36,001 bases of DNA from the IMG/VR virus record IMGVR_UViG_3300037070_001073, positions 1 through 36,001 of that record. One strand, given 5' to 3'. The DNA is from a virus. The notes below the pieces were generated by a model. That model was not told where the DNA came from and ran no database searches. It saw only the letters and a program-made list of their open reading frames with translations. The first letter of the stretch is position 1, and each line of letters opens with the position of its first letter. Position numbers and translations under genes: made by a program. This document shows, piece after piece, positions 1,464 to 36,001 of the stretch.

Positions 1464-1523
1464 TCTGTCTCGGCCTTTCTCGGCGTACTATTTTATTGTG
1501 CTTGGGCGCACAACGTATTAAGT

Positions 1524-26581: not shown

Positions 26582-26902
26582 TCAGTTAGGTTTCAACTCT
26601 GGTGAGTTGTAGGTAGATATGAAGCCAATAAGATCTCCGCATCGTACTTGCACATAATACAGAGGCTTCTTATTGGTCTCCTTTACGTAAGGACTTCCTG
26701 TGGTGTAACACACAGTAGATTCGTGGACAAGCGTATAGGATAGGAATTCATCTCCTATGATTCTCCAAACTTTCACATAGCCATCACTGAAGGATGTAGC
26801 TTTCAAGTGAATCATATTAGCGGGTGACAAAGCGTGGGAAATCATAGTCATTGTTAGTCCTATCGCTAGAACTATGATTGCGATTTGCCCGACAGCTTTC
26901 AT
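26582..26902 (-). CDS. Secreted or membrane-anchored small protein
   Basis: A 106-residue protein with an N-terminal hydrophobic helix (residues 4-24: VGQIAIIVLAIGLTMTMIS), either a signal peptide with a SHALS-like cleavage region or a membrane anchor. The rest is a small beta-rich domain with two cysteines (VCYTTG near 63 and VRCGDLIGF near 86) that could form a disulfide outside the cell. The function is unknown; envelope exclusion is one option. The SD AAGGAAA lies in the loop of a small hairpin. Confidence 0.6.
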   Translation of the reverse strand: MKAVGQIAIIVLAIGLTMTMISHALSPANMIHLKATSFSDGYVKVWRIIGDEFLSYTLVHESTVCYTTGSPYVKETNKKPLYYVQVRCGDLIGFISTYNSPELKPN

Positions 26903-26907
26903 GGCAG

Positions 26908-26924
26908 CAGGATTTCCTTTCCTG
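26908..26924 (-). promoter_or_regulatory. SD-bearing hairpin of the 26582 gene
   Basis: On the minus strand CAGGA and TCCTG arms close a 7-base loop AAGGAAA that holds the SD, six bases before the ATG. This is the same idea as the SD hairpins of the other right-hand genes, but with SD fully in the loop and other arm sequences. Confidence 0.5.
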
Positions 26925-26930
26925 ATATAA

Positions 26931-26962
26931 AGGAGTCCTAGGATTGGTATCCTAGGACTCCT
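26931..26962 (-). terminator. Terminator after the zinc-ribbon gene
   Basis: A perfect 14-bp stem, AGGAGTCCTAGGAT and its complement, with a 4-base loop lies just past the stop of the 347-residue gene. On the minus strand it is followed by TTTATATC, a short T-rich run. The stem is symmetric, so it could act both ways. Confidence 0.75.
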
Positions 26963-26978
26963 GTCTTACCAGCGAAAG

Positions 26979-28022
26979 CTAAACCAGCTCTTCGTCGCTA
27001 TATTCTTCGTCTTGCTCTTCCTCGTAAAGCTCATCCTCTTCTGTTGGTGCGATGCCTTGTGCCATGACCATGCCTTCGCCATCACCATCCTCAACTGGCG
27101 TCATAGCTGCACCTCTTGCACCCTTACGACCTGCTCCTGTCGCACGACTGCCAGCAGTCTTGGCCTTCTTTTCCTTCACAGGCTTGGCAAGGTCATCGAA
27201 GTGGTTGAGAATATCCTCATCGAAGAACCAACCCTTGCGAGCTCCCACGAAGTAAGGCGTCCACACACTTCCACGACCCCCGAGAGGGTCGTGCCGGAAG
27301 CGGTCACCGCCCATTGCCTGTGCGACGCGACCAGGCCCGTATCCAGCAGCTTTAGCAGCGGCAAAGACCTGCTTGACCGGAATAATGGTGATGGTCAATT
27401 GCTTCACCTGCTCATCGTTGAGAGTACGACTGGCTTTGTACTCTTCCAATGAGCGACGCTTGCTCAGCTCTTCACCAACTACGATCTCAAACTCCTCATC
27501 CGTAAGACCTTCCAACTTCGTAGCATTAAAGCCTACGTTCTTGGCAAGCTGACGGAAGCAGAGTGGACAGATCCCACGTCGCACGATAGTATTGCGACGA
27601 ACGGGATTGCCGCAGACGACACAGATAACCTTTTCCGCTTCCGGAATGGGGTTGCCTTCTTCATCGAGCTCTTGTACCTTCGGTTCAGTTTCCACTTTAA
27701 CACGCCTCGTCTTTCTTGGTAGCATTACCTGAACGACTTCCTCTTCACTACTGGAGTCGGTAGAAGGCAGAGTATCGACATCATCGACATCTACATACTC
27801 TTCCTCCTCTCCAGTTGACAACTTTATCTGGAACTCACCTAGAGTACCATTCTTGGAGGGGAGAAGCGTTGCTCCTTCGGGAAGGTTTGGCCGTACATCG
27901 GTCTGCTTGATTCCCAGTTGCTTGGCCGCAAAGCGAACGGTGACGTACTCACCATCTGCATTCTTAGCGGCAACCAGGGCCTCGATTTGACTGGCGATGC
28001 TGGGCTGAACTTGGTCTGACAT
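26979..28022 (-). CDS. Zinc-ribbon protein with acidic linkers, unknown function
   Basis: A 347-residue protein. An N-terminal helical part with an HTH-like segment (residues 15-50: RFAAKQLGIKQTDVRPNLPE) is followed by an acidic linker (70-95). A zinc ribbon has C134 and C137 (CVVCG) and C152 and C155 (CPLC). A C-terminal module at about 215-290 (AAKAAGYGPGRVAQAMGGD, then VWTPYFVGARKGWFF) precedes a basic stretch and a very acidic tail ending DELYEEEQDEEYSDEELV. The combination suggests nucleic-acid binding. The ATG at 28022 has AAGAAAGGA upstream, partly paired in a hairpin. A consensus promoter lies 51 bases upstream. Confidence 0.75.
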   Translation of the reverse strand: MSDQVQPSIASQIEALVAAKNADGEYVTVRFAAKQLGIKQTDVRPNLPEGATLLPSKNGTLGEFQIKLSTGEEEEYVDVDDVDTLPSTDSSSEEEVVQVMLPRKTRRVKVETEPKVQELDEEGNPIPEAEKVICVVCGNPVRRNTIVRRGICPLCFRQLAKNVGFNATKLEGLTDEEFEIVVGEELSKRRSLEEYKASRTLNDEQVKQLTITIIPVKQVFAAAKAAGYGPGRVAQAMGGDRFRHDPLGGRGSVWTPYFVGARKGWFFDEDILNHFDDLAKPVKEKKAKTAGSRATGAGRKGARGAAMTPVEDGDGEGMVMAQGIAPTEEDELYEEEQDEEYSDEELV

Positions 28023-28026
28023 TGTA

Positions 28027-28044
28027 TAATCCTTTCTTGGATTA
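28027..28044 (-). promoter_or_regulatory. SD hairpin of the zinc-ribbon gene
   Basis: Minus-strand RNA: TAATCC, loop AAGAAA, GGATTA. It is a perfect 6-bp stem; the SD AAGAAAGGA runs through the loop into the 3' arm. The start codon follows four bases later. It should lower ribosome access unless opened. Confidence 0.6.
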
Positions 28045-28072
28045 CTAAATTGGGGTAGGTACTACAGGATTT

Positions 28073-28101
28073 ATTGTAACATGAATGGGTCGGCTTGGCA
28101 A
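28073..28101 (-). promoter_or_regulatory. Strong candidate promoter for the zinc-ribbon gene
   Basis: On the minus strand TTGCCA (28101-28096), a 17-base spacer and TACAAT (28078-28073), continuing as TACAATAA. The -35 lies inside a GGTCGG...CCGACC hairpin (about 28086-28114) after the HNH gene. A near-identical arrangement is found at 31245-31273. Confidence 0.6.
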
Positions 28102-28129
28102 ATTTCCGCACCGACCAATCCGTTATACA

Positions 28130-28594
28130 CTACTTCTTGTAAGTCTTGTATCTTACAATTCTATTGATTGTGCTATAAGATACATTAAGGCTATCAGCAA
28201 TATCTTCAACTGATTCTCTACTAGATCTATCTCTTATATTACTGATTTCTTCTGCTGAAAACTTAGATAACCATTGTTTTTCTCCGGCAACATGTAGAGA
28301 TACATGTTTCTCATGCTGCATAATTTCAAGATTAGAGAAATGATTATTCTGGGGATTTTCATCCTTATGGTGAACAACATAGTCTTTTGGGATTTCCCCC
28401 ACAAAAGCCTCATAGACTAATCTATGGATTGTATGAGTTAGTTCCCATCCAGCTTTGTTAAGTGCAATAGTCTTGTGGCCGTATTCAGGTGTATAGACTT
28501 TTCGTAACTTGTCTGGAGTTCGTAGAGATTTTATATCCCCATTTTCCGACACTTGGTAGTATCCTTCATACCCTACAATATCTTTCCATTCCAT
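28130..28594 (-). CDS. HNH homing endonuclease (NUMOD4-HNH)
   Basis: A 154-residue site-specific endonuclease of the type that spreads itself between phage genomes. The N-terminal NUMOD4 segment is MEWKDIVGYEGYYQVSENGD. The HNH core is YVVHHKDENPQNNHFSNLE at residues 72-90, with H75-H76, N83 or N84 and the expected spacing. The C-terminal helix-turn-helix (residues 128-150, VEDIADSLNVSYSTINRIV) reads DNA. I start at the ATG 28594-28592, where NUMOD4 begins, rather than at an upstream GTG (28600). The genes on each side look complete, so it is free-standing and not inside a visible intron. A structured leader precedes it. Confidence 0.92.
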   Translation of the reverse strand: MEWKDIVGYEGYYQVSENGDIKSLRTPDKLRKVYTPEYGHKTIALNKAGWELTHTIHRLVYEAFVGEIPKDYVVHHKDENPQNNHFSNLEIMQHEKHVSLHVAGEKQWLSKFSAEEISNIRDRSSRESVEDIADSLNVSYSTINRIVRYKTYKK

Positions 28595-28653
28595 ATTCAC
28601 TTAACTTTCTTGGTGGCTGTATTACCCTAGTTTGGGCAAGTGTAAGTTGTTAA

Positions 28654-28778
28654 CGTAGGGTACTACTTATAAGGGGTATAACATAGTTTTACAGCGCATA
28701 GCATAAGGTTTTACACCCCAAATAAGGGGTGTTTTGCCTATACCCTACGCTGTAAATTTGCACATTGTAGTGTGCAAA
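28654..28778 (-). other. Structured RNA leader region upstream of the HNH gene
   Basis: Several nested and competing pairings occur in about 125 bases: TTTGCACA / TGTGCAAA (28757-28764 with 28771-28778); TTTACAGCG / CGCTGTAAA (28688-28696 with 28748-28756); ACACCCC / GGGGTGT with loop AAATAA (28713-28732); and CGTAGGGTA / TACCCTACG (28654-28662 with 28741-28749). The last competes with the second, so two folds are possible. No named riboswitch or intron core was recognised. Confidence 0.55.
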
Positions 28779-28814
28779 CAAATAGCTCCCATTTTCATGA
28801 GAGCTATCTGTTTG
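28775..28814 (-). terminator. Terminator-like hairpin after the 28825 gene
   Basis: A 14-bp stem, CAAACAGATAGCTC with GAGCTATTTGTTTG on the minus strand (one G-U pair), 12-base loop, lies ten bases past the stop. It has no T run, so it may be a processing or stability hairpin. Its 3' arm shares four bases with the TTTGCACA hairpin of the next leader, so only one can form. Confidence 0.55.
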
Positions 28815-28824
28815 AACATACAAA

Positions 28825-29088
28825 CTAACGAACGTAAACAGCCCATTCCCGCAGAGCCGAGGCTGTCCCCGGATCTGTTGCAGCTAGATCCTCTAAGGTG
28901 CGCCATGTGCCATCCGGTCGTTGAGAATAAGCTTCTAGCGGCGCATTGGTGCTTTCCGCCTCTTTAAGTTGCTTATCGATGAAATACTGTTTACTATCTA
29001 CGAATACACACCACGCTAGGATGTAACGGTACTTCTTTTCTAGCGGTGTATATCCTGACTTGTGGGAAGGTCTTCCTGAGCGTGGCAT
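28825..29088 (-). CDS. Small basic protein, unknown function
   Basis: An 87-residue protein with a basic N-terminus (MPRSGRPSHKSGYTPLEKKY) and a segment DLAATDPGTASALREWAVYV near residues 68-86. This last part resembles DLAATEPEIYSNLVAYVKKC in the 34542 gene. It lies three bases after the DUF932 gene stop, probably in the same transcript; its SD is weak (GAGG about 14 bases upstream). No family was recognised. Confidence 0.58.
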   Translation of the reverse strand: MPRSGRPSHKSGYTPLEKKYRYILAWCVFVDSKQYFIDKQLKEAESTNAPLEAYSQRPDGTWRTLEDLAATDPGTASALREWAVYVR

Positions 29089-29091
29089 GGT

Positions 29092-30123
29092 TTAGGTATG
29101 CGCCTCGATACTGAACTGGAACAGTTGCTCGTAAGCCAACTCTTTGGTCTTGCTGCGATCCCCAAAGAGCGTATTCCACTGACGGCTATCCCCGATAGGG
29201 CCAACTGTAGGACGATAATCTTCGATTTCTACAACTGCATTGTAGAGACCCCATACCGTACCCTTCAGCACGTCGCTATCCATGCCCATCCCCTCACCTT
29301 GCCAATCTTCCATTACACGCTCCCGCCAGTTAGCCTTCGCCTTCACGTCGGCTTCATAAGCCTTTTCCCGCCGTTCCATAACGCTTTGGTCAGGAACATA
29401 GGAAGGCTTACGAGGATCCACGTAGATGCGCTTGAGAGCATCTTCTGCTTGCTCATCGTCGATAGTAGTGGAAGCCATGTAATTGAAGGTTACGGCCAAC
29501 GCTTCGCTCTTCTTCTCGGCACGTTGCACAATGCCCTCCATCCAACCAGCCAGACGGCTTTCGACGTCCTTATCGTGGATGATTCTGAAACTCTCGGTAC
29601 TGGCAGATTTCGCTGCGATCAGCGTGTTCTGGCAGACCACACGTACTGGCGTAACACGAACTTGAATTGCGCCATCACCGTATGGGCTGTGCAACAAGAG
29701 ATAAGAATCAACCTCATCCGCTACGCTACCCTTTCCCATAATCTGAAAAGAGGGTAACTTTGTGGTGATGAAGATGCTTTCACCTTGCCCCAGAACACCG
29801 AGCGTTTCAACGGGCTTCTTGGTAGATTCATCCCAGATTTCACAAGTGCGAAGGGGATCTACCATTGTGTACTCCGGCCCAACAATCCCAAAACTGCGGA
29901 AGTTGTTGTCGTCAGGAAGTGGGTGGCGAGTGATCACACGGTTCGGTAATTCCAACTTAATGTTACCGACCTTTGTGAAGACAGGTTCCAGAGTCACAAT
30001 GTATGGTTGCATCCCATTGAAGATCTCTGTTGCCGTCTGTTCCTCTTCCCCGATCTTCCCTAGTCCGTGCCAAGCAGGTTGGCGAAGGGAGTAGAAGCGT
30101 TCGTTGAAAAGATTGTGAGCCAT
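29092..30123 (-). CDS. DUF932 (TIGR03299-type) phage/plasmid protein
   Basis: This 343-residue protein matches the DUF932 group, found widely in phages and plasmids and of unproven function. The N-terminal signature RQPAWHGLGKIGEE is typical (the family has a conserved pAWHglG motif). Downstream, NRVITRHPLPDDNNFRSFGI, a GQGESIFITTKLP segment and SPYGDGAIQVRVTPVRVVCQ (the conserved RvVCqNTl region, residues about 154-175) all fit. The C-terminal part ends with GDSRQWNTLFGDRSKTKEL. The ATG at 30123 follows AAGAAAGGA. The family call is firm; the role is not known. Confidence 0.9.
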   Translation of the reverse strand: MAHNLFNERFYSLRQPAWHGLGKIGEEEQTATEIFNGMQPYIVTLEPVFTKVGNIKLELPNRVITRHPLPDDNNFRSFGIVGPEYTMVDPLRTCEIWDESTKKPVETLGVLGQGESIFITTKLPSFQIMGKGSVADEVDSYLLLHSPYGDGAIQVRVTPVRVVCQNTLIAAKSASTESFRIIHDKDVESRLAGWMEGIVQRAEKKSEALAVTFNYMASTTIDDEQAEDALKRIYVDPRKPSYVPDQSVMERREKAYEADVKAKANWRERVMEDWQGEGMGMDSDVLKGTVWGLYNAVVEIEDYRPTVGPIGDSRQWNTLFGDRSKTKELAYEQLFQFSIEAHT

Positions 30124-30129
30124 GATGTA

Positions 30130-30208
30130 GTTCCTTTCTTGAAACCAAATAGTTTTTAATCGTGTAACATATTTACACGATAAGTTGCACCATCATGGAT
30201 GATGCAAC
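30130..30208 (-). promoter_or_regulatory. Three-hairpin leader of the DUF932 gene
   Basis: From 5' to 3' on the minus strand: a GTTGC...GCAAC hairpin with inner CATCAT pairing (30208-30184); a perfect 8-bp hairpin TCGTGTAA / TTACACGA with loop ATATG (30180-30160); and the SD hairpin GTTTC / GGAAC with loop AAGAAA (30145-30130). The first closely resembles the hairpin at 34141-34165 (both flanked by TAGG and TTAT). Confidence 0.6.
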
Positions 30209-30218
30209 CTACGTGGAA

Positions 30219-30476
30219 CTATGCTGCCTGATCTATCCAAAGGAAGAAGTCAGATTGTGATATAAGCGGTGAGCGGAACATTAGCACTACATCATATTCC
30301 GTTGGCACAATTGCATCTACTGTATTCAGATACTTATAGTTAGTATGAGCTATAACTGAATCTATATATGCTTGCGTATAGATACAGCACTCATCCCAAC
30401 TTCCTGTGAAGAGTGTTTCTGTACTGTCATCTTTATCTGACTTATAAAGTACATCATAGGGGTTAGGGTAATTCAT
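30219..30476 (-). CDS. Small protein of a right-arm paralogous group
   Basis: An 85-residue protein (start MNYPNPYDVLYKSDKDDSTE). The pattern VLYK...ETLFTGSWDE...YTQAYIDSVI...FFLWID parallels two genes at 33189-33470 and 33473-33703, so I place them in one family. The ATG at 30476 has AAAGGA eight bases upstream and lies 14 bases inside the previous gene; the ATG at 30485 is too close to the SD. The fold may be a small alpha/beta domain. The function is unknown. Confidence 0.6.
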   Translation of the reverse strand: MNYPNPYDVLYKSDKDDSTETLFTGSWDECCIYTQAYIDSVIAHTNYKYLNTVDAIVPTEYDVVLMFRSPLISQSDFFLWIDQAA

Positions 30477-30864
30477 CTTCTGCATCCTTTACATCTCTTG
30501 CAAGACTAAGATCGATTTCAATTTCTTCCTGGGTTTGTTGCCGCCGAATCAACTTAACGAGCTGACCAGAATACTTAGGAAGAAGTGTGTAGAGCCAACC
30601 TAATTGTTTCATGCTGAAGGTTTGCTCTCGCAGAGCTTGCTGCGCTAGGGATGTGAGAAACTCCTGATCCTGTGGAGAAAATCCCCATCCATTGCTTATA
30701 TGGTAGGTAGGAACTTCCTTTTCAGTATCCGTTTGTTCATCATATAGTGCCAGCAGCGCACGTCTTGCCCAATGTGGATGGGATTCCAGCTTGTGGCGGA
30801 TGTACTCTTTGAGCTGTGCATCCGTCATGTTGCGGTATGCAGGGTGGATTGCGACCTTTCGCAT
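30463..30864 (-). CDS. Hypothetical protein, 133 residues
   Basis: Starts MRKVAIHPAYRNMTDAQLKE and is mostly helical, with QLKEYIRHKLESHPHWARRA and QTFSMKQLGWLYTLLPKYSG, which resembles the small helical parts of some phage DNA-metabolism accessory proteins. The ATG at 30864 lies one base past the preceding stop, with GGAGG nine bases upstream. A longer reading to 31077 would overlap the upstream gene and has non-coding-like composition. The function is unknown. Confidence 0.6.
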   Translation of the reverse strand: MRKVAIHPAYRNMTDAQLKEYIRHKLESHPHWARRALLALYDEQTDTEKEVPTYHISNGWGFSPQDQEFLTSLAQQALREQTFSMKQLGWLYTLLPKYSGQLVKLIRRQQTQEEIEIDLSLARDVKDAEDELP

Positions 30865-30865
30865 T

Positions 30866-31180
30866 CTAGTCATCCTCCGCCATGTGCATATCATTCCATT
30901 CCGCCACATCGCTATCCTCATCATCATCGCTGCCAGTTGCACTTTCGATGAAGTCATTGCATTCATCGCAACGAAGATTGTAATCCTCCCAGTTAATTTC
31001 GTAATCTGTAATGATGCGATACTCGTCATCTTTGTCTTTCCACGCACATCTAGGGCAAAGCACATTGTTCTCTTCATCTATATAGAACAATGGATAGCCT
31101 CCAGGCCATGCGTAGGCAGGAAGATGATCATCCGCAGCCATTTGATCCGTAATTAACTTTTGGATCTTGGGATTAAACAT
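30866..31180 (-). CDS. Hypothetical zinc-finger-like acidic protein
   Basis: A 104-residue protein beginning MFNPKIQKLITDQMAADDHL. It has two Cys pairs, CPRC near residues 42-45 and CDEC near 71-74, a plausible zinc site, and an acidic tail (SDDDEDSDVAEWNDMHMAEDD). The ATG at 31180 has AAGAAAGGA upstream; a longer reading to 31228 would start inside the leader. Its promoter and terminator are described separately. No family was recognised. Confidence 0.62.
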   Translation of the reverse strand: MFNPKIQKLITDQMAADDHLPAYAWPGGYPLFYIDEENNVLCPRCAWKDKDDEYRIITDYEINWEDYNLRCDECNDFIESATGSDDDEDSDVAEWNDMHMAEDD

Positions 31181-31183
31181 TGC

Positions 31184-31201
31184 AGTTCCTTTCTTGAAAC
31201 T
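31184..31201 (-). promoter_or_regulatory. SD hairpin of the 30866 gene
   Basis: Minus-strand RNA: AGTTTC, loop AAGAAA, GGAACT, a 6-bp stem with one G-U pair. The SD AAGAAAGGA spans the loop and 3' arm, and the ATG follows three bases later. Confidence 0.6.
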
Positions 31202-31244
31202 AAGACTATGCTTTCTCGGCCTTGTCACCGTCTCCGTGATACTT

Positions 31245-31273
31245 ATTGTACCATAGAGGGAGCATTACGGCAA
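31245..31273 (-). promoter_or_regulatory. Strong candidate promoter for the 30866-30463-30219 genes
   Basis: On the minus strand TTGCCG (31273-31268), a 17-base spacer and TACAAT (31250-31245), continuing as TACAATAA. The -35 overlaps the 3' arm of the preceding terminator-like hairpin. The same architecture appears at 28073-28101. Confidence 0.6.
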
Positions 31274-31298
31274 ACACATCTTTTGGGATGTGCTGCCG
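31268..31298 (-). terminator. Terminator-like hairpin after the 31315 gene
   Basis: CGGCA...TGCCG outer and CACATC/GATGTG inner pairing with one internal mismatch form a strong hairpin about 17 bases past the upstream stop. No T run follows; it overlaps the next promoter. Confidence 0.5.
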
Positions 31299-31314
31299 GA
31301 CTCTGCATTCTACT

Positions 31315-31572
31315 CTACTCAGGCCAGCGGGGGCTAGAGACAGGAGTGTAGCTTTTCTTCAGGACGGGACGATGTTGCGGCAGCACAGGTGAAGACGCAA
31401 CAGGACGATTTCTGTTTTCATTTTCTGCTAGTATCAGTAATGCAAATACAGGAAGTATGCCAAAGCAGAGACCTATGAAGAACCACAGCACAGGTCCTCT
31501 GTTTTGATTGCTTGCCAGTACCGCACAGATTATAGAGCAGAGCAACAACAATACCAGAACAATTAACCACAT
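31315..31572 (-). CDS. Small membrane protein
   Basis: An 85-residue protein with two hydrophobic helices, about residues 2-19 (WLIVLVLLLLCSIICAVL) and 28-47 (VLWFFIGLCFGILPVFALL), and a Pro/Ser-rich cytoplasmic or periplasmic tail (PVLPQHRPVLKK). Its SD is weak (AGAAAGAG well upstream). It has the look of a small phage membrane factor such as an immunity or holin-like protein, but it is far from any lysis gene. The function is unknown. Confidence 0.6.
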   Translation of the reverse strand: MWLIVLVLLLLCSIICAVLASNQNRGPVLWFFIGLCFGILPVFALLILAENENRNRPVASSPVLPQHRPVLKKSYTPVSSPRWPE

Positions 31573-31595
31573 CTTACTTACTTTTCTCTTTCTTA

Positions 31596-31877
31596 CTAAC
31601 CTGGGAACAGTAGTTCGTATTCTTCCATTAACTCATCTTCGTCCCACCAGCCTTCTTCTACATCGTCTAAATGTAGGGTAATGGCAAGGCTCAGATAGCT
31701 AAGTAAGCGTTCTATTTTCCAGCTTACGTTAGTCGATTGATGCGGCGGGAACAAGGGTAGATAGGCATCTGCTACTGCATCCCGTAGATTCTTAAGAATA
31801 TTATTCTCGTATTCCTGACGGGCTGCTTTTTGCAAGTCATCCCGTTCCCACTGATCCTGTTCTTCAATTTCTGTCAC
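31596..31877 (-). CDS. Hypothetical acidic helical protein, GTG start
   Basis: A 93-residue protein that starts at a GTG (31877) with AGGAGA six bases upstream. It is acidic and helical (EQDQWERDDLQKAARQEYEN at the start). An amphipathic middle segment (WKIERLLSYLSLAITLHL) precedes a strongly acidic C-terminus (EEGWWDEDELMEEYELLF). The small gap to the upstream gene suggests co-transcription. No family was recognised. Confidence 0.6.
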   Translation of the reverse strand: MTEIEEQDQWERDDLQKAARQEYENNILKNLRDAVADAYLPLFPPHQSTNVSWKIERLLSYLSLAITLHLDDVEEGWWDEDELMEEYELLFPG

Positions 31878-31889
31878 GGTGTTCTCCTA

Positions 31890-32171
31890 TTAGAATGGTA
31901 GATTGTAATAAACCCAACGCTCTGATGTGCGTTCTCTTACGGCGGCAAGGAATTCAGTTTCATCCATGCTGAATAACTCGAGCAAGGTTTTCTTCTTGCT
32001 CTCGTTAGTTCTCACAATTCTATGCCAACATTCAGCAGGAGCATGATAAGCTCTACAATCTTCCCAGCTTTGCTGTTCTGATCTAGAGATTTCTAATAAC
32101 CTACTGGCTATCCAAGATAGTGTATCATCCGCTTTGCCGTACAGCGTATCTTTGGAACAATTACGCAACAT
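31890..32171 (-). CDS. Hypothetical protein, 93 residues
   Basis: A helical protein starting MLRNCSKDTLYGKADDTLSW. I use the ATG at 32171 because GAGGAGA lies nine bases upstream; it overlaps the previous gene by 11 bases. An earlier ATG (32201) lies deeper in that gene. It contains RTNESKKKTLLELFSMDETE, which suggests a charged helix, and CRAYHAPAECWHR with two Cys. No family was recognised. Confidence 0.6.
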   Translation of the reverse strand: MLRNCSKDTLYGKADDTLSWIASRLLEISRSEQQSWEDCRAYHAPAECWHRIVRTNESKKKTLLELFSMDETEFLAAVRERTSERWVYYNLPF

Positions 32172-32400
32172 GGAAGGGAATCTCCTCATCAGAGAACTCA
32201 AATCCAGACTCGTTATTGTATTCTAGCACATCGTGTAGATTACCATTTTCATCTTGGTAGAAGATACATGCTACCAGATAATCTGGGTTTTCTTGGATGA
32301 GCTGCCAAAGTCTGACCAGCGCATGTTGGAGTTGGTAGAACCATTCTCCATCATGATCCTTGGCTTCATCTACCTGGAACTGTAGATCGTATGTAGCCAT
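32161..32400 (-). CDS. Hypothetical protein, 79 residues
   Basis: Starts MATYDLQFQVDEAKDHDGEW at the ATG 32400, with AGAAAGGA close upstream (a longer reading to 32475 lacks support). It holds a WFYQLQHALVRLWQLIQENP helix and a C-terminal acidic part (YNNESGFEFSDEEIPFHVA). The beta-helix-beta layout is like several neighbours. The function is unknown. Confidence 0.6.
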   Translation of the reverse strand: MATYDLQFQVDEAKDHDGEWFYQLQHALVRLWQLIQENPDYLVACIFYQDENGNLHDVLEYNNESGFEFSDEEIPFHVA

Positions 32401-32404
32401 ACTA

Positions 32405-32501
32405 TTCCTTTCTGGAAATATAATGCAATCTGGTCTTGGAACCAGCCTTCGAGTGAAGGGAGCATTACGGCCCACCCATCATATGATATGGGTGTGGCCG
32501 T
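32405..32501 (-). promoter_or_regulatory. Leader with terminator-like hairpin of the 32161 gene
   Basis: From 5' to 3' on the minus strand: ACGGCC...GGCCGT outer and ACCCAT/ATGGGT inner pairing (32501-32467), a small CCTTC/GAAGG hairpin, a CTGGT/ACCAG hairpin, then the SD hairpin TTCC / GGAA with loop AGAAA (32417-32405). The first is the likely terminator of the 32515 gene. Confidence 0.5.
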
Positions 32502-32514
32502 CCTCTGCAATTAC

Positions 32515-33012
32515 TTAGCTTTCTTTTTCCACTTCCATCATTTCTGTGCCATCTTCACAGATGACCTTGTAGGTCTGCTTGGTGACTTGCACCAATTCAG
32601 TTTTGCTTTCTACGAGAATACGCTTGCACGTACCTTCCACCAATCGTTCAGCATCCATGATCAAGGTCAAGGAAATATATTCCTCGTCCAGATAGCGGCT
32701 GTAGTTCTTGGTAAGTGTGCCGTTATCGTTCTGATATTGACTACCGAACTTCCAGCCAGAACCGAGTGCCTTGCGTGCCGCAATCATATTGCTTTTAGAC
32801 CACGGAACATATAAGGTGATCCCGTAGGTTTCAATATAGATGCGAGTATCGGTAGGCAACCAGCTCTCATCGATTAAGCGTGCCGCTTGCTTCACAAAAG
32901 TGAGGCGTGCCTTTTGCCGAGCCAGATAATCTTCCTGGCTCTTAATGGCATTGGCGATCAGCCCATCTTTCTTAAGACGGGGCAGCTTGATCGTGGATTG
33001 TTGGGTGTTCAT
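32515..33012 (-). CDS. Hypothetical protein, 165 residues
   Basis: Starts MNTQQSTIKLPRLKKDGLIA at the ATG 33012 preceded by AGAAAGGA. A basic N-terminal part (QKARLTFVKQAARLIDESW) is followed by a beta-rich middle (RIYIETYGITLYVPW) and an acidic tail. It is one of the larger unknown genes of the block. No family was recognised. Confidence 0.62.
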   Translation of the reverse strand: MNTQQSTIKLPRLKKDGLIANAIKSQEDYLARQKARLTFVKQAARLIDESWLPTDTRIYIETYGITLYVPWSKSNMIAARKALGSGWKFGSQYQNDNGTLTKNYSRYLDEEYISLTLIMDAERLVEGTCKRILVESKTELVQVTKQTYKVICEDGTEMMEVEKES

Positions 33013-33016
33013 GTTT

Positions 33017-33097
33017 GGTCCTTTCTGAACCTGATATTGTTGTTTGTGCATCTATTCGCACACCAAATGCTACCATCCATCACGTGATAGCATCTGG
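33017..33097 (-). promoter_or_regulatory. Three-hairpin leader of the 32515 gene
   Basis: Minus strand, 5' to 3': a 12-bp hairpin CCAGATGCTATC / GGTAGCATTTGG (33097-33063, G-U pairs allowed), an abutting TGTGC / GCACA hairpin (33062-33045), and the SD hairpin GGTTC / GGACC with loop AGAAA (33031-33017). Confidence 0.6.
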
Positions 33098-33104
33098 TTT
33101 GCGC

Positions 33105-33182
33105 CTAAACCTTACGGCCCCACAATAGACATAGGATAACTACAATTGCGAGTATTGCAAATTCCCATGGGATGGGTAGCAT
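33105..33182 (-). CDS. 25-residue single-helix membrane micro-protein
   Basis: An ATG at 33182 lies six bases after the stop of the 33189 gene, with AGGAAAAT before it. The product is MLPIPWEFAILAIVVILCLL followed by WGRKV: one hydrophobic helix with a positive tail, a classic layout for small phage membrane peptides. It ends at a TAG at 33105. The size is below usual gene-calling limits. It could be chance, but SD, spacing and helix together favour a real gene. Confidence 0.5.
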   Translation of the reverse strand: MLPIPWEFAILAIVVILCLLWGRKV

Positions 33183-33188
33183 ATTTTC

Positions 33189-33470
33189 CTATTCCTTATG
33201 TTGATATTTATAACTGTGAGGAAGTTGTAAATTCTTAACCCATAAGTGGAAGGCATAACCTGGATTATCGTTGCGATAGAAGTATATGCGTGCTATCCGA
33301 AGATCAACATCTGGGTCTTTAACCAACCGAAAATCTGGTGTATGGTTGCCCATTCTTTGGATTGCATCCACAAAACCTTCATAGTAACCGATAGCCTTGT
33401 CTCTGCTGCCAGCAAACAAGACTTCCGGATCACTGTTGCCGTCAGCTTCTTTGTACATTACGTAGTGCAT
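33189..33470 (-). CDS. Small protein of a right-arm paralogous group
   Basis: A 93-residue protein (start MHYVMYKEADGNSDPEVLFA). It shares the pattern VMYK..PEVLFAGSRDKAIGYYEGFVDA..IYFYRND...FHLWVKN with the 30219 gene and more weakly with the 33473 gene. The ATG at 33470 lies two bases past the stop of the preceding gene. The function is unknown; a small alpha/beta fold is likely. Confidence 0.6.
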   Translation of the reverse strand: MHYVMYKEADGNSDPEVLFAGSRDKAIGYYEGFVDAIQRMGNHTPDFRLVKDPDVDLRIARIYFYRNDNPGYAFHLWVKNLQLPHSYKYQHKE

Positions 33471-33472
33471 TT

Positions 33473-33703
33473 TTACTCTTCGTCCTTCCATTCTTGCTCG
33501 GTCAGAATATACAGTTGGATGTGTTGGCCGTTACCATCAACGAGATTGTAATAATCTTTATGGTAGGTAGCATAACTTCGCCAACCCTGGCTCATGAGAG
33601 CTTGCTTATAGCCCATCTGAAATGTGCGTAAGCGGTCATGTGCGCCAAATTCTATCGGGCGTGGAGCTTCCGAATTCTTGCGCTCTAGTAATATGTACTT
33701 CAT
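33473..33703 (-). CDS. Small protein of a right-arm paralogous group
   Basis: A 76-residue protein starting MKYILLERKNSEAPRPIEFG. The N-terminal layout (KYILLERK...PIEFGAHDRLRTFQMGYKQAL) parallels the two other members of the group. The ATG at 33703 has AGAAAGGG in a hairpin upstream. The next gene starts two bases past its stop. The function is unknown. Confidence 0.6.
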   Translation of the reverse strand: MKYILLERKNSEAPRPIEFGAHDRLRTFQMGYKQALMSQGWRSYATYHKDYYNLVDGNGQHIQLYILTEQEWKDEE

Positions 33704-33708
33704 TTTGT

Positions 33709-33793
33709 ATCCCTTTCTGGAGATTTCATATGACGATTACTGTACAGCAATCCTGTACACTATACGGCACAACAGATGGGGGTTGTGCCGTAT
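33709..33793 (-). promoter_or_regulatory. Three-hairpin leader of the 33473 gene
   Basis: Minus strand, 5' to 3': a perfect 12-bp hairpin ATACGGCACAAC / GTTGTGCCGTAT with an 8-base loop (33793-33762), likely terminator of the 33805 gene; a 7-bp hairpin TGTACAG / CTGTACA with loop GATTG (33759-33741); and the SD hairpin ATCTC / GGGAT with loop CAGAAA (33724-33709). Confidence 0.68.
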
Positions 33794-33804
33794 CGTGTGC
33801 GTGA

Positions 33805-34080
33805 TTACACTTCTTGCGATACAGGGGTAACGGTGGCAAACTCGAAGGTGTTAACCATATAACAGATTATGCCGTCTTCTTCGTTTACGTATTCGTAAAC
33901 CTGATAGCTACCCATGCCGTCTGATCGCAAGAATACCAACGGGCAATCCCATCCATCCACTGTTACTATGATTGTACCATAGCCAGCCATCGGATGTACG
34001 GCAAAGCCCATATCCCCATCCCCTTCCACGAATTGGTCTTCGTGTAAGCGGGGTACGGCAACCACTGGATATTCTAACAT
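33805..34080 (-). CDS. Hypothetical protein, 91 residues
   Basis: Starts MLEYPVVAVPRLHEDQFVEG at the ATG 34080, preceded by AGAAAGGA at about ten bases. A longer reading to 34164 runs through the leader hairpins and is rejected. It is a beta-rich small protein (TIIVTVDGWDCPLVFLRSDG), Gly-rich in the middle. No family was recognised. Confidence 0.6.
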   Translation of the reverse strand: MLEYPVVAVPRLHEDQFVEGDGDMGFAVHPMAGYGTIIVTVDGWDCPLVFLRSDGMGSYQVYEYVNEEDGIICYMVNTFEFATVTPVSQEV

Positions 34081-34087
34081 GCGGGGT

Positions 34088-34165
34088 AAGTCCTTTCTGA
34101 ACTTTGCTTTGTTTGCTTGCTGTGCCAATCTGCACAATAAGTTGCACAAATCTTGTTTATGCAAC
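34088..34165 (-). promoter_or_regulatory. Three-hairpin leader of the 33805 gene
   Basis: Minus strand, 5' to 3': a GTTGCA...TGCAAC hairpin (34165-34141), a TGTGC / GCACA hairpin with loop AGATTG (34136-34121), and the SD hairpin AAGTTC / GGACTT with loop AGAAA (34104-34088; one G-U pair). Confidence 0.65.
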
Positions 34166-34184
34166 CTATGTACAACTTAGCTTC

Positions 34185-34436
34185 CTATGTCCAGCGGCAA
34201 TGCTTCTCTGTGCCGTAATCAAACATTACAATGTTATTTTCTTCTGAATCATCTTCAGGGTTCTCTTCGTCTATGTAGGTAATGGTCAGATCAATACCAA
34301 CCAACTTGCTAGGTATATTTTCCCAAGTTTTAATTTGGTCTGCTGCGATGTGCAACGCTGTGGGAAAATCCATTACTTGTTGGGTAGGCAATTGAAAACT
34401 CAGATCACCACTTACCGCAGCTACGATGTGATACAT
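34185..34436 (-). CDS. Hypothetical protein, 83 residues
   Basis: Starts MYHIVAAVSGDLSFQLPTQQ. It contains a helix (FPTALHIAADQIKTWENIPS) and an acidic loop (DEENPEDDSEENN) before a C-terminal strand. The beta-helix-beta layout recalls the small paralogous group nearby, but sequence similarity is too weak to assign. The ATG at 34436 has CAGAAAGG upstream. Confidence 0.6.
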   Translation of the reverse strand: MYHIVAAVSGDLSFQLPTQQVMDFPTALHIAADQIKTWENIPSKLVGIDLTITYIDEENPEDDSEENNIVMFDYGTEKHCRWT

Positions 34437-34441
34437 TTTAT

Positions 34442-34527
34442 AAAGCCTTTCTGAACTTTGTTTTGTGTGTTACTTACCAGATTGTAAGTAAAGGTAACGG
34501 CCCACCCATCTGATGATGGGCCGTACC
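34442..34527 (-). promoter_or_regulatory. Three-hairpin leader of the 34185 gene
   Basis: Minus strand, 5' to 3': a strong hairpin TGGGCCGT / ACGGCCCA seen from the plus strand at 34493-34527 (likely terminator of the 34542 gene), a 7-bp hairpin TACTTAC / GTAAGTA with loop AATCTG (34490-34471), and the SD hairpin AAAG / CTTT with a one-base bulge around AGAAA (34459-34442). Confidence 0.6.
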
Positions 34528-34541
34528 CTTTGCCTACAAGA

Positions 34542-35024
34542 TTAACTTGCGTACCTACCCACAATTTTTTCTGCTTCTTTTAGGGTAGGTTTCTTGCCTT
34601 TTGCATCGCACTTTTTAACGTAGGCTACCAGATTGCTATAAATTTCTGGTTCTGTTGCAGCCAGGTCACGAAAATCCCACCTTAGCCGCTCTGAAATACT
34701 ACCTAGCTGGCGTAGATATTCTACACTGTAGGTTACAGGTACATCGTCTTCCGATAGGCTGCCATCTGACATACTAACTGCTGGCGGCACAAACACATGA
34801 TCTAGCCATATACCCTGCACTTCACAATCTACATTGGGGTCCATCCGACCGCACCAGGGTTCTACTGTTACGCTGCCCGCCTCAGAAATTTGTACTTGCT
34901 GCCGTATGCAAAACAGGTCAGATCTGTTCCAACCTGTTTGGGCGCAGTAGATTTCTGCACTTTGTGCATCGGCAAAGCGTACCGTAGTAATTCCATCGGT
35001 AGCAACCCATGTATCCATAAACAT
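34542..35024 (-). CDS. Hypothetical protein, 160 residues
   Basis: Starts MFMDTWVATDGITTVRFADA at the ATG 35024 with AGAAAGG eight bases upstream; a reading from a TTG at 35066 would extend into the leader. The middle has VTVEPWCGRMDPNVDCEVQG. The C-terminal part is helical, with DLAATEPEIYSNLVAYVKKC (about residues 126-145), a segment shared with the 28825 gene. No family was recognised. Confidence 0.62.
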   Translation of the reverse strand: MFMDTWVATDGITTVRFADAQSAEIYCAQTGWNRSDLFCIRQQVQISEAGSVTVEPWCGRMDPNVDCEVQGIWLDHVFVPPAVSMSDGSLSEDDVPVTYSVEYLRQLGSISERLRWDFRDLAATEPEIYSNLVAYVKKCDAKGKKPTLKEAEKIVGRYAS

Positions 35025-35056
35025 TGTTGTGCCTTTCTGATTTGTAATTGTTTTAT

Positions 35057-35108
35057 TGTACAGCAATCCTGTACACTATGCTACACCAGTATTGTTTTCT
35101 GATGTAGC
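35057..35108 (-). promoter_or_regulatory. Two-hairpin leader of the 34542 gene
   Basis: Minus strand, 5' to 3': GCTACATCA / TGGTGTAGC hairpin (35108-35080) and TGTACAG / CTGTACA with loop GATTG (35075-35057), continuing as TACAATAAAA. The second hairpin is identical to that at 33741-33759. No clear SD hairpin here. Confidence 0.6.
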
Positions 35109-35117
35109 CTAGTTTAC

Positions 35118-35453
35118 CTATTGCCTTTTAGCTAATTCGGAAGTAAGTAAGCCTGTTGCGTCACAATCTAGGTCAACCAGCCAGTCACTCAGATAAGCAA
35201 GTAGGTGGTTAACCGTTTCTTCTTGCGTGTACGTACCACCATCTTGTTTTGGGTAGCAACGTACCATAGCGGCAAGAAATTCTGCATATACAAAATCTGG
35301 TACTACTTGCCCTACGGCAGCACATATTTCGGAAAATGGTAAAGTCCGAAGATACGCTAGGTAGGGTTCGTATTCTGCATATACAGGGGCAAGCAGATTG
35401 TGCAACTTTGCGCTGTTGATTGCATGTTGCGCTTGCTCTTCAGATGTAAACAT
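35118..35453 (-). CDS. Hypothetical protein, 111 residues
   Basis: A helical protein (MFTSEEQAQHAINSAKLHNL start), with VYAEYEPYLAYLRTLPFSEI and a C-terminal LAYLSDWLVDLDCDATG region. CGGAGG lies six bases before the ATG, a standard SD rather than the AGAAAGG type. No family was recognised. Confidence 0.6.
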   Translation of the reverse strand: MFTSEEQAQHAINSAKLHNLLAPVYAEYEPYLAYLRTLPFSEICAAVGQVVPDFVYAEFLAAMVRCYPKQDGGTYTQEETVNHLLAYLSDWLVDLDCDATGLLTSELAKRQ

Positions 35454-35480
35454 ATTGCCTCCGATTTGATTTTAGTTTAT

Positions 35481-35533
35481 TGTGCAACAGATTTGCACAC
35501 TATGCAGCACAAGATTTGGTTTGCTTATGCTGC
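35481..35533 (-). promoter_or_regulatory. Two-hairpin leader of the 35118 gene
   Basis: Minus strand, 5' to 3': GCAGCA / TGCTGC hairpin (35533-35504) and TGTGCAA / TTGCACA with loop ATCTG (35499-35481). Both flanks (AAACTAGGC before, ATAGTGT between, ACAATAAA after) match the leader at 35057-35108 while the stems differ. Confidence 0.62.
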
Positions 35534-35551
35534 CTAGTTTGCAGATTGTGG

Positions 35552-35788: not shown

Positions 35789-35804
35789 GTTTTGCCTTTG
35801 CTTG

Positions 35805-35960
35805 AGATTTGTGTTGGTAAAACTGCTAGATTTGTTTTTGCAAAACTTCTACAGATTTGGTTTTACAAAACTGCTGTAGATTTTGCTTACAGATTTTGCT
35901 TGCAATTTTTGCTTACCAGATTTGGTTTGCAAAAACTGCAACGAGATTGTGTTTTGTAAA
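35805..35960 (-). repeat. Degenerate ~25-bp tandem repeats near the right edge
   Basis: AGATTT-type cores begin at 35805, 35828, 35853, 35878, 35891, 35918 and 35944, giving spacings of 23, 25, 25, 13, 27 and 26 bases. The unit reads roughly AAAACTGCTACAGATTTGG followed by TTTTGC. Each unit has a small palindrome (GTTTT-x-CAAAAC type), so units can fold as hairpins with an AATCT-containing loop on the minus strand. The stretch is AT-rich, has no gene and lies upstream of the 35552 gene. Confidence 0.65.
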
Positions 35961-36001
35961 ACTGCTACCCCACTTATTTTTGTTGGGTGGGTGGGTGTCC
36001 C

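Follow-up and report, generated by a model that had tools for sequence, protein, structure and literature searches.

The sequence analyzed here, a virus record from IMG/VR (IMGVR_UViG_3300037070_001073; 36,001 bases, referred to as the window), contains a set of minus-strand genes whose Shine-Dalgarno (SD) sequences lie within small hairpins, and this hairpin family is the subject of this report. Genes for the terminase, portal, and capsid are among the plus-strand genes at 1 to 26 kb. On the minus strand, a block spanning 26.3–35.8 kb encodes a DUF932 protein and an HNH endonuclease alongside small unknown genes; we infer from what its genes encode and how they are oriented that it holds the early genes. 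A gene for an SNF2-type helicase, also on the minus strand, extends past the left window edge. At the DNA level, a nucleotide search with the window revealed no similarity to named phages. A host call from a search of genome contigs was rejected because the best matches, a Methanothrix bin (46%) and Flavobacterium (33–34%), were too distant.

The exact sequence AGAAAGG is found 6–11 nt ahead of the start codon in 10 minus-strand leaders, nine of them in the 28 to 35 kb block and one at the helicase gene. Eight of the nine block leaders form a stem of 5–7 bp that starts at the GG of the SD and closes a loop of 5 or 6 nt (AGAAA or NAGAAA). The leaders are given below as 5' arm, loop, and 3' arm.

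28026–28045, minus strand: SD hairpin of the 26979–28022 gene, GTAATCC-AAGAAA-GGATTAT, 7 bp
30128–30147, minus strand: SD hairpin of the DUF932 gene (29092–30123), TGGTTTC-AAGAAA-GGAACTA, 7 bp
31183–31202, minus strand: SD hairpin of gene 30866–31180, TAGTTTC-AAGAAA-GGAACTG, 7 bp, outer pair U.G
32403–32420, minus strand: SD hairpin of gene 32161–32400, TATTTC-CAGAAA-GGAATA, 6 bp
33017–33031, minus strand: SD hairpin of gene 32515–33012, GGTTC-AGAAA-GGACC, 5 bp
33709–33724, minus strand: SD hairpin of gene 33473–33703, ATCTC-CAGAAA-GGGAT, 5 bp
34088–34104, minus strand: SD hairpin of gene 33805–34080, AAGTTC-AGAAA-GGACTT, 6 bp
34442–34459, minus strand: SD hairpin of gene 34185–34436, AAAGTT-CAGAAA-GGCTTT, 6 bp, two U.G pairs beside the loop
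35032–35040, minus strand: the exception, AGAAAGG leader of gene 34542–35024, TC/GG only, 2 bp
1473–1484, minus strand: leader of the SNF2-type helicase (gene from 1463 leftwards), GCC-GAGAAA-GGC, 3 bp

All of the hairpins that a first-pass annotation had recognized were found where it placed them, and the pairing it described was present; however, the leaders at 28036, 30138, and 31193 reach 7 bp, and the hairpins at 32405 and 34442, which it had called shorter, are both 6 bp in the CAGAAA-loop register. Its list lacked the 2-bp leader at 35038. The 3-bp version that it noted before the helicase gene is likewise there, and its GCC/GGC stem is kept in relatives with GAGAAA, CAGAAA, ATGAAA, or AGGAAA as the loop.

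The number of paired leaders was compared with two controls: dealing, in which the 5' arms were reassigned among the leaders, and shuffling, in which the flanks were permuted around a fixed SD. Within the window, the eight of nine leaders with at least 5 bp compare with 2.43 expected by dealing (none of 20,000 deals reached 8) and with 0.25 expected by shuffling; the equal stem frequency in shuffled leaders that would have spoken against the hairpins was thus not reproduced. Four relatives add ∼45 leaders: L006, L007, and L008, with 89–96% identity in the DUF932 protein, and L009, with 75%; the whole group comprises five or six related records. Terminase relatives were also found (G003, 98%; G009 and G010, 80%), in records that cover mostly other regions. 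Paralogous leaders are not independent cases. When one leader was taken per ortholog family (n ∼23; window and the four relatives), at least 5 bp were present in 15–17, compared with 3.1–4.8 expected, and under the strictest grouping, single linkage on arm similarity into eight clusters, four of the eight were paired to this extent, compared with 0.65 expected (P 0.0004).

As the first-pass annotation had proposed, the arms change while the pairing stays. For the 26979–28022 gene, the window arms TAATCC/GGATTA correspond to AAACC/GGTTT in L006–L008 and to GTTCC/GGAAC in L009 and a further related record, L096; the DUF932 ortholog in L009 has TGATTTC-AGAAA-GGAATCA. In the 32161–32400 family, L006 and L007 have TACC/GGTA and L008 has AAGTTC/GGACTT. 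The GGTTC/GGACC arms of the 32515 gene are replaced in orthologs by GGTTTC/GGAACC or AGATC/GGTCT, the ATCTC/GGGAT arms of the 33473 gene by AGTTCT/GGAACT in L009, and the hairpin of the 33805–34080 gene by AAAGTT-CAGAAA-GGCTTT. Even the 2-bp leader at 35038 has an L008 ortholog with AAGTT/GGCTT. Across orthologous genes at 59–90% identity, therefore, the arms differ and the pairing is intact. For 37 distinct leaders, the covariation score was 0.556, compared with 0.264 ± 0.024 in shuffled leaders and at most 0.316 in slid registers, and none of 500 shuffles reached the observed covariation or pairing scores. Four of the six stem pairs vary on both sides: pairs three to five include U-A, A-U, and G-C, with C-G at the third only and one G.U in all. 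In the subset with a 6-nt loop, 91.7% of cells were paired compared with 67.4%, a percentage that is biased upward because the subset was picked by its loop. The two loop-proximal pairs, in which the G is fixed by the SD, have a pyrimidine partner in 77 of 78 cells, and in 32 of these it is U; because U.G pairs in RNA and is a mismatch in DNA, this speaks for a structure in the RNA rather than a DNA palindrome. Overall, the comparison of homologous leaders supports, at a level above background, selection on the RNA pairing, with the fold kept and the sequence of the arms apparently free. An Rfam scan of the window gave no family at the gathering score.

The hairpin does not simply accompany this SD sequence, as indicated by a control set that covered 78 other loci (1.33 Mb) and their 90 leaders with AGAAAGG. 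There, the mean stem was 1.2 bp compared with 1.1 bp when dealt, and at least 5 bp were present in four leaders compared with 2.1 when dealt; the control took in five leaders of related records (L096 and L098), and dropping them only lowers its stem count. Within the window, the hairpin was found neither at the plus-strand virion genes, which mostly use AGGAG or GGAGG sites without this stem, nor at genes internal to the minus-strand operons. It is confined to genes behind gaps of 93–176 nt in the 28 to 35 kb block, and nearly every early gene behind such a gap bears one, which agrees with the confinement to one gene block and the different virion sites described by the first-pass annotation. 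That annotation had left it undecided whether the hairpin recurs in related phages: it does in the close relatives, but DUF932 relatives at ∼48% identity or less have AAAAGGAG-type sites and no stem. In G009, with its terminase at 80%, small stems (for example, ACCC/GGGT) occur in a few leaders of the A4GGG type, too few for statistics; these are perhaps an older form. IMG/VR pattern scans with the commonest hairpins returned the same records and isolated matches and no further hairpin family.

The gaps in front of the hairpin genes contain additional features, which are listed here together with a hairpin of another design.

28023–35551, minus strand: intergenic gaps of 93–176 nt before the hairpin genes, in nearly all of which a long stem-loop (H1) precedes the SD hairpin
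28073–28101, minus strand: sigma-70-type promoter TTGCCA-17-TACAAT with TGn, upstream of the 26979–28022 gene
31245–31273, minus strand: sigma-70-type promoter TTGCCG-17-TACAAT with TGn, upstream of gene 30866–31180
26908–26924, minus strand: hairpin of the other design, open reading frame 26582–26902, CAGGA-AAGGAAA-TCCTG, SD-like purine run all in the loop

An H1 stem-loop is present in nearly every gap (z −2.4 to −6.4), with arms that differ from gap to gap and no established consensus sequence; its form is often a lower stem of 4–5 bp, a one-base mismatch, and an upper stem of ∼10 bp, as in the minus-strand gaps 35025–35117, 33704–33804, 34081–34184, and 30124–30218. Two gene families share a conserved promoter, TTGCCN-17-TGNTAYAAT, 40–70 nt ahead of the start (L006–L009 and L096 orthologs), and the one at 28073–28101 is conserved in all five orthologs and present in L096. 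A promoter for each gene was considered and rejected, convincing examples being limited to two of the 10 window gaps. In some cases, one leader stands before different genes: between window 34451 and L007 3630, the 3' arm changes from GGCTTT to GGACTT, both of which can pair, and L007 4204 and window 34098 share an identical upstream leader in a further case of a changed gene or 3' arm. That a leader standing ahead of one gene in the window heads another in L007 suggests that early cassettes were exchanged at the hairpin boundary. The 26908–26924 hairpin, which the first-pass annotation had counted as related to the family, does exist but differs in its CAGGA/TCCTG stem and in having the SD wholly in the loop. 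Close to it, at 26930–26961, the end of the 26979–28022 gene has a strong symmetric hairpin, AGGAGTCCTAGGATACCAATCCTAGGACTCCT, which is possibly a bidirectional terminator between both operons. At the other end of the block, on the minus strand ahead of its first gene (35800–36001), there are AT-rich repeats resembling AAATCTG and GCAGTTTTGTAAAACC.

The stems are predicted to be weak. Folding energies, all predictions at 37 °C, ran mostly from −1 to −7 kcal/mol (median −4.1, strongest −7.0), and over 54 leaders the median predicted unpaired probability was 0.95 for the loop and 0.03 for the GG. Opening of the SD was predicted to cost 4.0 kcal/mol, compared with 2.7 kcal/mol with the arm of another leader. 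In the MS2 coat-hairpin series of de Smit and van Duin, expression was 80–100% at −6.6 to −7.9 kcal/mol and dropped at −9.5 kcal/mol, and the hairpin starts lowering translation at roughly −8 to −9 kcal/mol (PMC9894550); the stabilities predicted here fall short of this initiation-limiting range. Because the stems are weaker than the MS2 threshold for repression, which comes from a different host, the hairpin by itself would be expected to adjust or place initiation and is probably not an off-switch.

The CCUUUCU tail at the 3' end of 16S rRNA is established for many bacteria and is assumed here. We see about an even chance that the hairpin is a structure-selected start element that is read by the ribosome, exposing AGAAA and holding the GG weakly. 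Each early cassette would carry such a start hairpin, which lies 6–12 nt ahead of the start codon and is made up of the 5' arm, the (N)AGAAA loop, and a 3' arm that starts with the GG of the SD. The 30S subunit would land upstream, on an unstructured stretch rich in A and poor in G (the linker just ahead of the hairpin is 45% A and 11% G), and ribosomes are able to bind at single-stranded standby sites that precede a structured SD (PMC3936740). The rRNA tail would nucleate on AGAAA in the open loop; the stem, being weak and having mostly U.G as its second pair, would open and let the GG enter the SD duplex. Built in this way, the hairpin would be a self-contained start site for exchangeable cassettes, independent of neighboring sequence, and the reduction of SD accessibility by ∼1 kcal/mol would act as a mild, uniform brake. 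A loop of either length, 5 or 6 nt, and free arms are what a ribosomal reader would lead one to expect. Several points weigh against this reading: close paralogy cuts the independent cases to eight arm clusters under the strict rule, about one-fifth of the AGAAAGG leaders are stemless, arm dealing shifts the predicted opening cost by only ∼0.9 kcal/mol on average, and a purely helpful landing pad would need no pairing.

For translational control of the whole block, the first-pass annotation gave a phage RNA-binding repressor as one example, besides timing. In this alternative, the hairpin would be the operator of a phage-encoded translational repressor or switch that clamps the weak stems and shuts the early SDs together, much as T4 RegA and the MS2 coat protein act on their targets. 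Such a clamp would be needed where a stem cannot repress by itself, the motif is single and limited to one gene block with many early genes, and a variable stem with a constant AGAAA loop is the usual pattern for a protein that reads the loop. However, the constancy of the loop is already accounted for by the SD, and family searches matched none of the early proteins to an RNA-binding family. Moreover, the loop is not uniform: it comprises 5 or 6 nt with a variable first base, and in a more distant relative the loops are AAAAGGG or otherwise A-rich. Such variation speaks against a single repressor that reads the sequence strictly. Of the annotation's interpretation, selection on pairing and confinement to one gene block are supported and the repressor is a candidate; we consider an operator of this kind the main contender, a serious but rather unlikely one. 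A 347-aa early protein (26979–28022, minus strand) has a C-x2-C...C-x2-C zinc ribbon and is conserved in the group; none of its Pfam or PHROG matches exceeded the cut-off. As a candidate repressor it was rejected: the match to the uS14 zinc ribbon among PDB profiles was non-significant (E 0.19), and its predicted fold was of low confidence (predicted local distance difference test score 59.5, predicted template modeling score 0.30) and was left unused.

It is improbable, in our view, that the hairpin sets the fate of the mRNA as a 5'-end stabilizer or an endonuclease site, acting with the long intergenic stem-loops, which RNase III would cleave as it does T7 early mRNA. The long imperfect stem-loop in nearly every such gap would fit this explanation, as would T4 RegB, which cleaves the SDs of early messages but requires an unpaired GGA (PMC3014915); the GG is paired here, and a pure stabilizer would not need the SD inside the hairpin. 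Inverted repeats that act in DNA are very unlikely; they would serve as binding sites or as joints at which cassettes recombine, and the RNA hairpin would be a by-product. Leaders were swapped between genes and genomes, and the extended start-associated sequence (ESAS) repeats of cluster K mycobacteriophages carry promoters (PMC11373665), but freely varying arms leave no common site except AGAAAGG, the 32 T among the 77 pyrimidine partners pair only in RNA, and convincing promoters are confined to the two gaps above. Finally, a few ancestral leaders may have been copied, with pairing not under present selection. The AAAGTTC and GTTTC leaders do recur and are probably copies; nevertheless, chance and inheritance of this kind are scarcely credible given that orthologous genes bear different yet paired arms, that the dealing, shuffling, and sliding controls fail to reproduce the pairing, and that the same SD has no such stem in other loci.

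The closest known counterparts of the proposed start element are the start-associated sequences (SAS) of other phages. As described by Pope et al. in 2011 (PMC3203893), cluster K mycobacteriophages have 11–19 copies of GGGATAGGAGCCC at the starts of non-structural genes after long gaps (over 50 bp), 3–7 nt before the start, and about half of the SAS have an upstream ESAS, a 17-bp inverted repeat with a fixed consensus and a SigA-like promoter; that promoters lie in these ESAS partners is also stated elsewhere (PMC11373665). The section consulted notes the GGG/CCC symmetry and contains no proposal of a hairpin for SAS, and its authors could not tell whether SAS act alone or bind a factor (PMC3203893). 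In Microbacterium phages of cluster EF, the SAS is GGGAAAGGACCCC, at the ribosome-binding sites of non-structural genes (PMC7302621). We found that SAS are themselves predicted to fold in a neutral context, in cluster K with GGG/CCC around AGGAG at −3.4 kcal/mol (Anaya and Pixie) and in cluster EF as GGG-AAAGGAC-CCC at −3.6 kcal/mol (AnnaSerena), with some AnnaSerena copies predicted to fold otherwise in their real flanks. The examined parts of Anaya and Pixie hold 27 exact copies and one with the outer pair exchanged, CGG/CCG. Rare variants that preserve the pairing are this copy, CGGATAGGAGCCG (Pixie, L154:5519), and GAGG/CCTC around GAAAGGA (AnnaSerena, L183:28572); other rare variants lose a pair.

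The cluster K SAS and the present hairpins both sit on the ribosome-binding sites of non-structural genes only, behind gaps of more than 50 bp (93–176 nt in the 28 to 35 kb block), with pairable symmetric outer arms around the SD, similarly weak stability, and an upstream linker that is A/C-rich in SAS and A-rich here. Inverted repeats lie upstream of about half of the SAS; here, H1 is present in nearly all gaps and a convincing promoter in two. The cluster K SAS is a near-invariant 13-bp sequence, whereas here only AGAAAGG is constant, the arms covary, the GG is in the stem, and the loop is AGAAA, with no sequence relation between the two; the cluster EF SAS, from different phages, also has a constant sequence and holds the SD entirely in the loop. 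The present hairpins are therefore outside the sequence definition of SAS and are not SAS members, although as far as anatomy tells they would work like them. Other systems are more remote. The MS2 coat hairpin also holds an SD, and initiation there is set by how stable the hairpin is (PMC9894550), but it belongs to a single gene of an RNA phage, includes the start codon, and has a wild-type stability of −7.9 kcal/mol. T4 RegA and RegB likewise target a phage-wide set of early ribosome-binding sites, but the available part of the source describes no covarying hairpin family there (PMC3014915). No RegA or RegB homolog was seen among the early proteins scanned. The early RNase III sites of T7 are imperfect stem-loops in successive early gaps, followed by the SD of the next gene; the likeness concerns the upstream H1 stem-loops and not the SD hairpins. 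A literature search of open-licence papers gave no account of a phage early region in which SD hairpins covary from gene to gene. Judged from the leader sequences, the hairpins are a new variant beside SAS, with freely varying arms and the covariation that the constant-arm SAS lack.

Tentatively, and with more doubt than confidence, we suggest a recurrent start element: unrelated phages (this group, cluster K, and cluster EF) may have independently evolved a weak SD hairpin of about −4 kcal/mol after an A/C-rich stretch, selected for structure and read by a common factor, either the ribosome or a widespread protein, for uniform co-regulated translation of exchangeable cassettes. The function of the cluster K SAS has been open since 2011, and constant arms cannot reveal covariation. 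The phage group described here amounts to a natural experiment, in which dozens of leaders have altered arms and retained pairing, and the proposition that the hairpin itself is the element becomes directly testable. Overall, the findings suggest that, in phage evolution, structure alone can come to define a genome-wide set of start cassettes for translation.

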